Assembly (NCBI GenBank): GCA_947087275.1
Contig: CAMUBZ010000006.1
Location: 1-55,822, forward strand
DNA from: an uncultured Candidatus Saccharibacteria bacterium
Lineage (GTDB): Bacteria > Patescibacteriota > Saccharimonadia > Saccharimonadales > Saccharimonadaceae
DNA length: 55,822 nt
Direction: 5' to 3'
Shown: positions 38,297-44,318 of the stretch, in pieces
How positions within the stretch are numbered: the first letter of the stretch is position 1
How the letters are laid out: every line of letters starts with the position of its first letter
The notes under the pieces: model-generated
What the model was told of the DNA's origin: nothing
What the model saw: the letters and a program-made list of their open reading frames with translations, nothing else
Database searches by the model: none
Program-made: the position numbers and the translations under genes

Positions 38297-38336
38297 ATTG
38301 CTAGACTAAAGATAGTGTTTATGTTACAATAGTGGT

Positions 38337-38768
38337 GAGTCTGAAAGGCAGCCGCTTGGTTTACCAAGAGGAAAGTCCGGGCAGCATAGGGTACGGTAGT
38401 CGTTAACAGCGACCGTCCGCAAGGATAGGGAAAGTACCACAGAAACAAAACCGCTGCGGGCTAGAACCACCAAACTTGACATTTTCTTCGTCTTCGCTCG
38501 CCAGGGAGGCGCGCTTCAGCCGAAGAAAATGCCGATTTTGGCGGTTCTATCTCCGTAGCAAGGGTGAAAAGAGTGGGGTAAGAGCCCACAGCAACTTATG
38601 GTGACATAGGTTGGAGGCAAACCCTACCGGCTGCAAGGAGTGCTATGAAACCTTAACCCGAGGATGCACGCTCACCGCTAGAACCGTCGAGCAATTGATG
38701 GTCTAGATAGATGGTTGCCAGTTCTCTCGCGAGAGGGGATTACAAAACCCGGCTTACTGATGACTCAC
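38337..38768 (+). ncRNA. rnpB: RNase P RNA
   Basis: Conserved elements are in order: GGCAGCCGCTTGG and GAGGAAAGTCCGGGC near the 5' end, an internal AACCCGAGGATGC-type segment, and ACAAAACCCGGCTTAC near the 3' end. GAGTC at the 5' end pairs with GACTC at 38762. TACAAT (38325-38330) is the -10 box. An extra GC-rich stem-loop arm at about 38480-38540 is long. It matures tRNA 5' ends with RnpA. Confidence 0.93.
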
Positions 38769-38769
38769 T

Positions 38770-38798
38770 AAAAATACCACCAATATGGTGGTATTTTT
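38770..38798 (+). terminator. Terminator of rnpB
   Basis: AAAAATACCACC / GGTGGTATTTTT with a small loop, directly after the RNase P RNA. Confidence 0.85.
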
Positions 38799-42194: not shown

Positions 42195-42548
42195 GGGGCT
42201 GACAAAGTTTAGACGAATTATTAACAGATATCAGGCATGTCGAATAATACACGTAAGTATCCAAATAAGTCAGAAAAATACGACTAAGCATGTGCTTTAT
42301 GCACCTGCATTTGCTTAAGATTTTAATTTAAGCTGGTCCAAAGTCGAGTTTCCGTAGACTGCGGATTATTAGATTACGGTAATAAGGCGAGGGGAATAAT
42401 CGACCCAAGCCCGACAATATAGATTAGGGCACCTATAGTTTTGTTGTTTGCAGCTGTAGGATTTTGCTGACGAAACAAGCAACTAAGCATGTAGAATGGT
42501 ATCATGAAGATTTTTCGGACCCGGAGGCAGTATCCGGCAGCTCCACCA
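42195..42548 (+). ncRNA. ssrA: Transfer-messenger RNA
   Basis: The 5' GGGGCTGACAAAG pairs with the 3' AGCTCCACCA; the T-arm and GGACCCGGAGGCAG are just before it. The tag frame ends in LYAPAFA-stop (TAA 42316-42318), a hydrophobic end suited to proteolysis. The resume codon is not clear; the frame is open back to about 42236. A TATATT -10 box with TGTGC before it is at 42179-42184. It rescues stalled ribosomes. Confidence 0.92.
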
Positions 42549-42583: not shown

Positions 42584-42854
42584 TGGTCAAAAGTACAACA
42601 AATAGCCTGTGGAAAACTCAACCAAAAATTATAAAAAAATTGTACAAAATCCTATTGACTTAAGCATTTATTGGCCATATAATAGAGACAGTTCTTGAAT
42701 AAAAATATTATACAAGAACCAAAAATAAAAACTTTCAGTCCTCCATGTAAGGACTTAAAAATAGCCAAAATAACTCCACACTCTACGAAAGACCGGTTTT
42801 CCTCGCAGTTGCCGGTCTTTCTCTTTTGTCATGAAATATGCTATAATGGGCAGT

Positions 42855-42942
42855 GGAAGCGTGGCCGAGTGGTTGAAGGCGCACGACTCGAAATCGTGTG
42901 GGCAGCAATGTCTCGGAGGTTCGAATCCTCTCGCTTCCGCCA
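42855..42942 (+). tRNA. tRNA-Ser(CGA)
   Basis: 88-nt class II tRNA: acceptor GGAAGCG/CGCTTCC, anticodon stem CACGA/TCGTG with loop CTCGAAA (anticodon CGA), long variable arm, T-arm GGTTCGAATCC, G discriminator and encoded CCA. TATAAT at 42842-42847. Confidence 0.95.
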
Positions 42943-43393: not shown

Positions 43394-43543
43394 CACAAGC
43401 ATGATAAAAGTGTAAAAAACGCGGTGGGTAGGGAATATTATATGTAAAATGTTGTAAAACAAACAACATAATAAAATAAGTAAATAACAGAGATAAAATA
43501 GCATATGTTGTGATAAATACAACATTATTTTGGGCAAAAACTA

Positions 43544-43572
43544 TTGAAATGTTAGCATAAGCGTGCTATGAT
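43544..43572 (+). promoter_or_regulatory. Promoter of the large structured RNA
   Basis: TTGAAA (43544-43549), 17-bp spacer, TATGAT (43567-43572): a near-consensus promoter with TGC before the -10. Transcription would start near 43579. Confidence 0.75.
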
Positions 43573-43578
43573 GAAGAC

Positions 43579-44245
43579 AGTTCAAATCAGAACACAAACA
43601 TGAACTACAAAAAAGTAATTTAACATTCAGAAGCAAGCGAATTCCACAGGCGAAAAGGTAATTTCTAGCCATAAATTACACTCTTAGGAATTACCTACAG
43701 CTTGCGGAATCACCTTGTGTGAATTCTCGAAAGAGAATAGTAAGCAACCTTGGGAAGGAGATGGGTCAAATCCCGTTGACTTCACTGGGGTGATCGTTAC
43801 CATCCTACCGTACAAATCTACGGGAATGGTAGTCCGTTTCAGAGTCGTCCTTCGGGAACACTCCTGGTAGCGGGCTTGCCAGGGATTATCACTCACGATC
43901 GCCCCGATGGAACCGAAAGACTACCATTTTGGGTAGCCTTGAGGCTCCTAGGGGTTCAGATAATCTTTTACTGGCCGATTTTCGCTATTCTTTCTGTGAA
44001 TCACTGAGGCCGCCCGTGAGAAATGCCTCTAGGTATCTAAGGTAGGAGCATGTCATAGTAATGCAAAGACCGACAAAATACACAGGGAATTTCGAGGGAA
44101 CGCTTGCGCATTGGGGAATATTATCTGTTTGTACATTGACATTCGAAATTAACAGAGATATGAACCAGTTAGGACTATGCCCCACCAAGAGTGGAGCGGT
44201 CAAAATCGAGGATGGGGCGAGTTGTGGCCCAAAGTAACAATGTGT
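43579..44245 (+). ncRNA. Large ornate non-coding RNA candidate (about 650 nt)
   Basis: No convincing ORF, yet many local and nested helices: AGGTAATTTCT/AGGAATTACCT (43656-43666, 43686-43696), GCAAGC/GCTTGC (43633, 43700), ATTCTC-GAAA-GAGAAT GNRA hairpin (43723-43738), TACCAT/ATGGTA (43798, 43826), CCTGG/CCAGG (43863, 43879), GATTATC/GATAATC (43884, 43959) enclosing GAACC/GGTTC with CTACC/GGTAG and GCCT/AGGC arms, AATTTCGA/TCGAAATT (44088, 44143) and GCCCCA/TGGGGC (44179, 44213). Own promoter upstream and a tRNA next door, as seen with GOLLD and ROOL RNAs, but I cannot match a known family. Not self-evidently a group I or II intron. Confidence 0.6.
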
Positions 44246-44318
44246 TTTTCGCCAGATAACTCACCCATTCTCACCTAGTTTTCTTGCAATAGAGGTGTTG
44301 GGGGTATATAATAAGGTT

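Follow-up and report, generated by a model that had tools for sequence, protein, structure and literature searches.

GOLLD, ROOL and OLE (PMC12286853) are large non-coding RNAs with many helices and promoters of their own, and the RNA reported here resembles them in all these respects in the form carried by one clade of Saccharibacteria. Unlike them, however, the form found across the order is small, with a core of 150–200 nt, and is chromosomal and, as far as searched, exclusive to Saccharibacteria. To our knowledge, single-copy RNAs conserved across a whole bacterial order are rare beyond rRNA, tRNA, RNase P, tmRNA, SRP RNA and 6S RNA. Saccharibacteria are tiny organisms that parasitise other bacteria, and their genomes are very small; that this RNA has been kept throughout such genomes makes it likely to be important.

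The window, that is, the whole stretch of 55,822 nucleotides analysed from an uncultured Candidatus Saccharibacteria bacterium, also encodes RNAs recognised by Rfam 15: RNase P (38336–38771), tmRNA (42195–42548) and two tRNAs. An earlier note on this DNA had proposed a possible new class of giant structured RNA beside a tRNA-Ser. We found no paper describing an RNA of this kind from Saccharibacteria or CPR, and the text of a microbiome-wide screen for structured RNAs makes no mention of Saccharibacteria (PMC8040213).

A conserved folded RNA gene at a fixed locus

The stretch is a conserved folded RNA gene without a protein-coding role. The RNA region (43574–44280) holds no sensible ORF: the longest within 43575–44260 has 72 codons, and no ORF there is conserved. 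Together with the near-consensus promoter (Table 1), this bears out what had been read from the letters. So does the fold: 43575–44260 reaches −220 kcal/mol, against −185 ± 7.4 for dinucleotide shuffles (z −4.73), and none of the 20 shuffles folds as well.

By blastn against 60 relatives, the RNA was found in the window's genus, with matches at chance level only in other genera, and its best-conserved part was a 54-nt core (43649–43702). The matches examined share their locus, with comM/YifB upstream and, downstream, first a small membrane protein and then, ~1 kb from the RNA, a TraG/VirD4-like ATPase; a match outside it, in genome G015, was a chance promoter match. Covariance model R1, built on P1, gave 109 matches among 393 genomes of the order, nearly all in the window's genus and in g32; model R2, built on the 3' module, gave 131 in 19 genera. 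The weak R2 matches that were fetched lie at the comM–ATPase locus wherever the contig reaches that far, and are therefore confirmed independently of score. Of 295 genomes of the class, 204 are positive with model R3, which was rebuilt with these weak, locus-confirmed matches; they cover 82 of 128 genera and about 25 families, nearly all have one copy per genome, and every match falls within one order. The same locus is seen in all distant families checked. In a sample of the phylum searched at E ≤ 0.001, 20 of the 32 genomes of the order match, and none of the 348 outside it. When 12 genomes without a match were re-examined, 10 had an orthologous ATPase, and in 9 of these a search without filters recovered the RNA on the upstream side of this gene, in some cases with weak scores but at the expected position and with a GAGCGGUCAG or GAGCGGAUU motif in most; in G208 and G252 the locus is missing, RNA and orthologous ATPase alike. 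An exact scan of GTDB genomes for TTTCTAGCCATAAATTACA returned 118 stretches; among the titles listed, one says only 'bacterium' and the rest are Saccharibacteria. Phage and plasmid collections held no relatives of the RNA. Two IMG/VR contigs were rejected as viral copies, as they hold the 19-nt P1 motif only, without 3' module or neighbours. The RNA is single-copy (nearly always), order-wide and at a fixed locus; the window fits the definition of the new family, its P4–P6 core being matched by R2 and R3 between comM and the TraG-like ATPase.

Homologues and covariation were the tests set in advance for the RNA claim, and both were obtained. Within the window's genus, P4 and P6 show double changes at 12 of 17 pairs. 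When distant genera are included, bringing the set to 40 sequences, 97.6% of cells are paired and 14 of 17 pairs show double changes; double-change cells number 166, compared with 41.6 for shuffles, and the covariation score is 0.689 against 0.217 shuffled and at most 0.149 in all slid registers; this alignment was fitted to the covariance model and is hence biased towards it, although in our judgement the shuffle and slide margins should far exceed that bias.

Architecture and size range of the RNA

Table 1. Features of the RNA locus, in positions of the window
Feature	Position	Strand	Remarks
Palindrome GTTGTGATAAATACAAC	43507..43523	.	upstream of the RNA promoter; variants kept upstream of the RNA in relatives
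Promoter TTGAAA-17-TATGAT, extended -10 TG	43544..43572	+	predicted start near 43579; counterparts in aligned relatives
P0, 5' hairpin GTTC/GAAC, then A-rich stretch	43580..43593	+	read by eye, no statistical score
Possible mini-ORF MNYKKVI-stop	43600..43623	+	window copy without Shine-Dalgarno
P1 module: outer helix and 12-bp helix 43656-43667/43685-43696, near-invariant loop GCCAUAAAUUACA	43638..43712	+	model R1, 78.5 bits; alignment, pair counts
Lineage-specific insert, ~390 nt	43713..44095	+	holds GNRA hairpin and GATTATC/GATAATC; folds alone, z -3.6
P2 44110-44114/44165-44169; P3 44124-44129/44151-44156	44106..44169	+	arm-swap test
3' module	44169..44278	+	models R2, 83.7 bits, and R3, 78.8 bits
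P4 hairpin UGCCCCAC/GUGGAGCG, then conserved GGUC	44178..44201	+	covariation
P5 44208-44216/44264-44272 around P6 44219-44223/44258-44262, 44225-44228/44251-44254	44208..44272	+	covariation
Downstream gene's separate promoter, TTGCAA-17-TATAAT	44284..44312	+	-10 adjoins its ATG

The helices supported by evolution are P1 (43642–43712), P2/P3 (44110–44169) and P4–P6 (44178–44272). Counterparts of P0, also read by eye, are GUC/GAC, GUGC/GCAC, GCUUUU/AAAAGC or GUAAG/CUUAC in relatives. In the inner helix of P1 every cell is paired and the 13-nt loop is near-invariant, variation being so small that covariation is modest; P5/P6 has a G/GAU internal loop and a conserved apical AAAGUAA. RNAalifold on a MAFFT alignment returned zero P2/P3 pairs because loop lengths shift the alignment, and an arm-swap test was used instead, in which each sequence's own arms are compared with arms exchanged between sequences. 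It gave −8.5 for own against −5.2 for swapped arms in P3 (sd 0.31), −5.6 against −3.3 in P2 (sd 0.27) and −18.6 against −11.3 in P5 (sd 0.42); the sequences are related, and these sd values are not independent-sample errors. A kissing contact between the P1 loop (AAAUUAC) and the P6 loop (GUAAUUU-like) suits some members, fails in others and was dropped, and a scan of the window for the complement of the P1 loop found no convincing target.

Two motifs singled out in the earlier note, a GAAA (GNRA) hairpin (43723–43738) and GATTATC/GATAATC (43884–43890/43959–43965), are present, but in the lineage-specific insert, which among the genomes compared is recognisably common to the window and G024 only; both fall outside the evolution-supported helices, and the pairing of the second is not kept as such in G024.

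In distant families the RNA takes a compact form of 150–200 nt, consisting of a promoter, a 5' hairpin GUAAG...AAAACAAAAA...CUUAC, P4 AUAUCGCUCUC..GAGAGCGGUCAGUC and P5/P6 GGACGGUAAGCGCU..AAUAGUAAUUU..AGCGGAUUUACCGUCC, with a clear intrinsic terminator after P5/P6 in about a third. Most relatives in the window's genus have an RNA of ~330 nt, the forms in family f1 measure ~330–450 nt, and in the window and a few relatives the P1 core and the 3' module are set apart by additional sequence. The epithet 'giant' suits the window's own form (~650–700 nt) but not the class, as most members measure 150–450 nt and the ~650-nt size is specific to the window's clade. Judging from this distribution rather than from a tree, the long forms probably arose from the compact one: a core made of a 5' hairpin whose loop or linker is A-rich, P4 (...GAGCGGUCAGUC) and P5/P6, joined by the G/GAU internal loop and capped by a AAUAGUAAUUU-like apical loop, would have gained P1–P3 in family f1 and a further ~390 nt in the window's clade. 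Running from ~150 to ~700 nt, these sizes form a natural series on how an RNA grows domains.

Just 5' of P1, the RNAs of the window's genus carry mini-ORFs with a start codon, an upstream purine-rich Shine-Dalgarno (SD) and an early stop (for example MKYK, MKDK and MKRTRAKPKIP, each followed by the stop). They occur in 24 of 33 linkers against 2.7–3.2 in shuffles, a count over sequences that share ancestry, in which the window, L002 and L003 are non-hits and a few peptides start at an ATG inside P0. As the window lacks the SD and some ATGs lie inside P0, the mini-ORF characterises the greater part of the genus and not the class. In this genus, a ribosome may be recruited by the SD and a mini-ORF that ends just before P1, and the RNA may be coupled to translation; since the mini-ORF is not order-wide, any role in translation would be lineage-specific.

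Transcription unit and neighbourhood

Our preferred reading, to which we assign about an even chance, is that of an independent, promoter-driven, single-copy structured ncRNA gene, vertically inherited across one order of Saccharibacteria and producing a trans-acting housekeeping RNA of the RNP type. Such an RNA would work in trans as an RNP scaffold, its invariant unpaired elements serving as putative binding sites and the parts added in single lineages as peripheral domains. In favour of a standalone unit, terminator-like hairpins follow the RNA in 15 of 34 against 4.2 expected, and about 11 of these hairpins stand no more than ~45 nt beyond its end.

The main rival, possible but clearly less probable, is that the RNA acts in cis on the operon downstream (a 115-aa membrane protein, a 184-aa protein and the TraG/VirD4-like ATPase) as its leader or attenuator, RNA and terminator together controlling read-through. 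Several observations fit it: (i) every family checked has the RNA upstream of the ATPase; (ii) two genomes of the window's genus (99% completeness) that lack the RNA also lack the orthologous ATPase; and (iii) in about a third of the divergent loci a terminator separates the RNA from the gene. However, no terminator is seen after the RNA in the window's genus, which counts against either reading, and the operon's first gene has a promoter of its own in nearly all loci of this genus and the g32 group, with a −10 box adjoining the start codon in 32/32 (shuffled 14.9) and 17/18 (shuffled 6.8), respectively; this near-leaderless promoter argues for separate transcription. Moreover, comM, and often RNase P too, belong to the same conserved neighbourhood, so the linkage may reflect general synteny. 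In the distant families the downstream-promoter signal (10/20 against 8.4 shuffled) is not above chance, and for this reason the leader model keeps the weight given above.

Other features of the neighbourhood deserve mention. The tRNA-Ser at 42855, part of the original proposal, is genuine, yet it is missing beside the RNA in relatives, and its adjacency is incidental. A second conserved small RNA lies between tmRNA and the main RNA (42661–42845, + strand), with a strong promoter (TTGACT..TATAAT), a GTTCTTG..CAAGAAC hairpin, an A-rich linker, AACUCCACACUCUAC, a stem with the invariant loop UUUUCCUCGCAGUU and a T-rich tail; it occurs in nearly all loci of the window's genus and many of g32, and has no sensible Rfam match. 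Relative to the main RNA, tmRNA lies on the opposite strand in L031 and L040, and the small RNA in L041, L047 and L050, so the intergenic region has been locally rearranged in some relatives. The palindrome GTTGTAAnnnTTACAAC was discarded as the mark of a regulon: about 17 sites in genome G000 lie inside and between unrelated genes, so it defines no function, and its appearance is less that of a promoter box than of a site for chromosome organisation or recombination. L107, L111 and L113 carry, near palindromes and on both strands, several short ORFs with a VRSG start and a WSSR-like motif, which look like exchangeable surface-protein cassettes. In many assemblies of the window's genus, contigs often end ~10 kb downstream of the RNA, which suggests a repeat or variable region there.

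Relation to known RNA classes

Searched against Rfam 15 in sensitive mode, the window, typical and divergent members match no family and give chance matches only at E ≤ 10 (for instance rli43, 18 bits against a cut-off of 100), and the GOLLD, ROOL and OLE models show no similarity to the RNA. This check too had been fixed beforehand, and its outcome supports a new structured RNA class. The family is uncatalogued and resembles none of the catalogued classes, although knowledge of its function may eventually place it in a known kind. It is not RNase P, which Rfam 15 places elsewhere in the window, and not tmRNA, since the RNA has no tRNA-like fold (ARAGORN, Rfam) and a separate true tmRNA stands nearby.

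It is unlikely that the RNA is a very divergent 6S or SRP RNA, otherwise undetected here. Over the Rfam cut-off, the small SRP model matches 0/61 genomes of the order and the large one 0/41, and 6S RNA has no match in the window's genome; the same SRP searches match most control genomes and the 6S search fewer than half, so these absences are no proof. Such gaps, facing a new RNA that is order-wide and single-copy, would suit this identity. By inspection, however, the RNA has neither the GGAA/GNRA-capped domain IV with an AGCAG-type loop of SRP RNA nor the long rod with a central bubble of 6S RNA, its supported helices being the separate P0, P4 and P5/P6 hairpins, and Rfam similarity is absent. 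Within our preferred reading of a trans-acting RNP, the apparent lack in the order of recognisable SRP RNA and, in the window's genome, of 6S makes the RNA a good candidate for an unknown core RNA machine. A more specific version, which we hold only tentatively and think rather doubtful, is that of an uncatalogued core RNP of the order, doing the job of another RNA or protein elsewhere (6S-like control of transcription, SRP-like targeting or ribosome handling) and free to grow large lineage-specific domains. The covariance model, the fixed locus and the one-copy rule make the family directly testable.

Less probable again is that the RNA belongs with giant ornate RNAs such as GOLLD, ROOL and OLE: the ~650–700 nt of the window's form and its many predicted helices fit this, but the compact homologues, with a class core of 150–200 nt, disfavour it, as do the want of an Rfam match and of phage or plasmid relatives. 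Least probable of all is that the folding is incidental and the stretch is a DNA element (attachment or replication site) or a decayed gene: despite the palindromes upstream, compensatory changes run across many genera and families, and the absent GC-skew switch rules against a replication origin.

Among known RNAs, the likeness to tmRNA (RF00023) lies in the A-rich stretches, the tiny ORF in the window's genus and the adjoining position of tmRNA in family f1; unlike tmRNA, the RNA is without tRNA-like ends and its mini-ORF has an SD. From 6S RNA (RF00013) and SRP RNA (RF00169, RF01854) it differs in that their defining motifs are all missing and no model matches, but it is like them in being single-copy, in its presence throughout a whole group and in its core of 150–200 nt.
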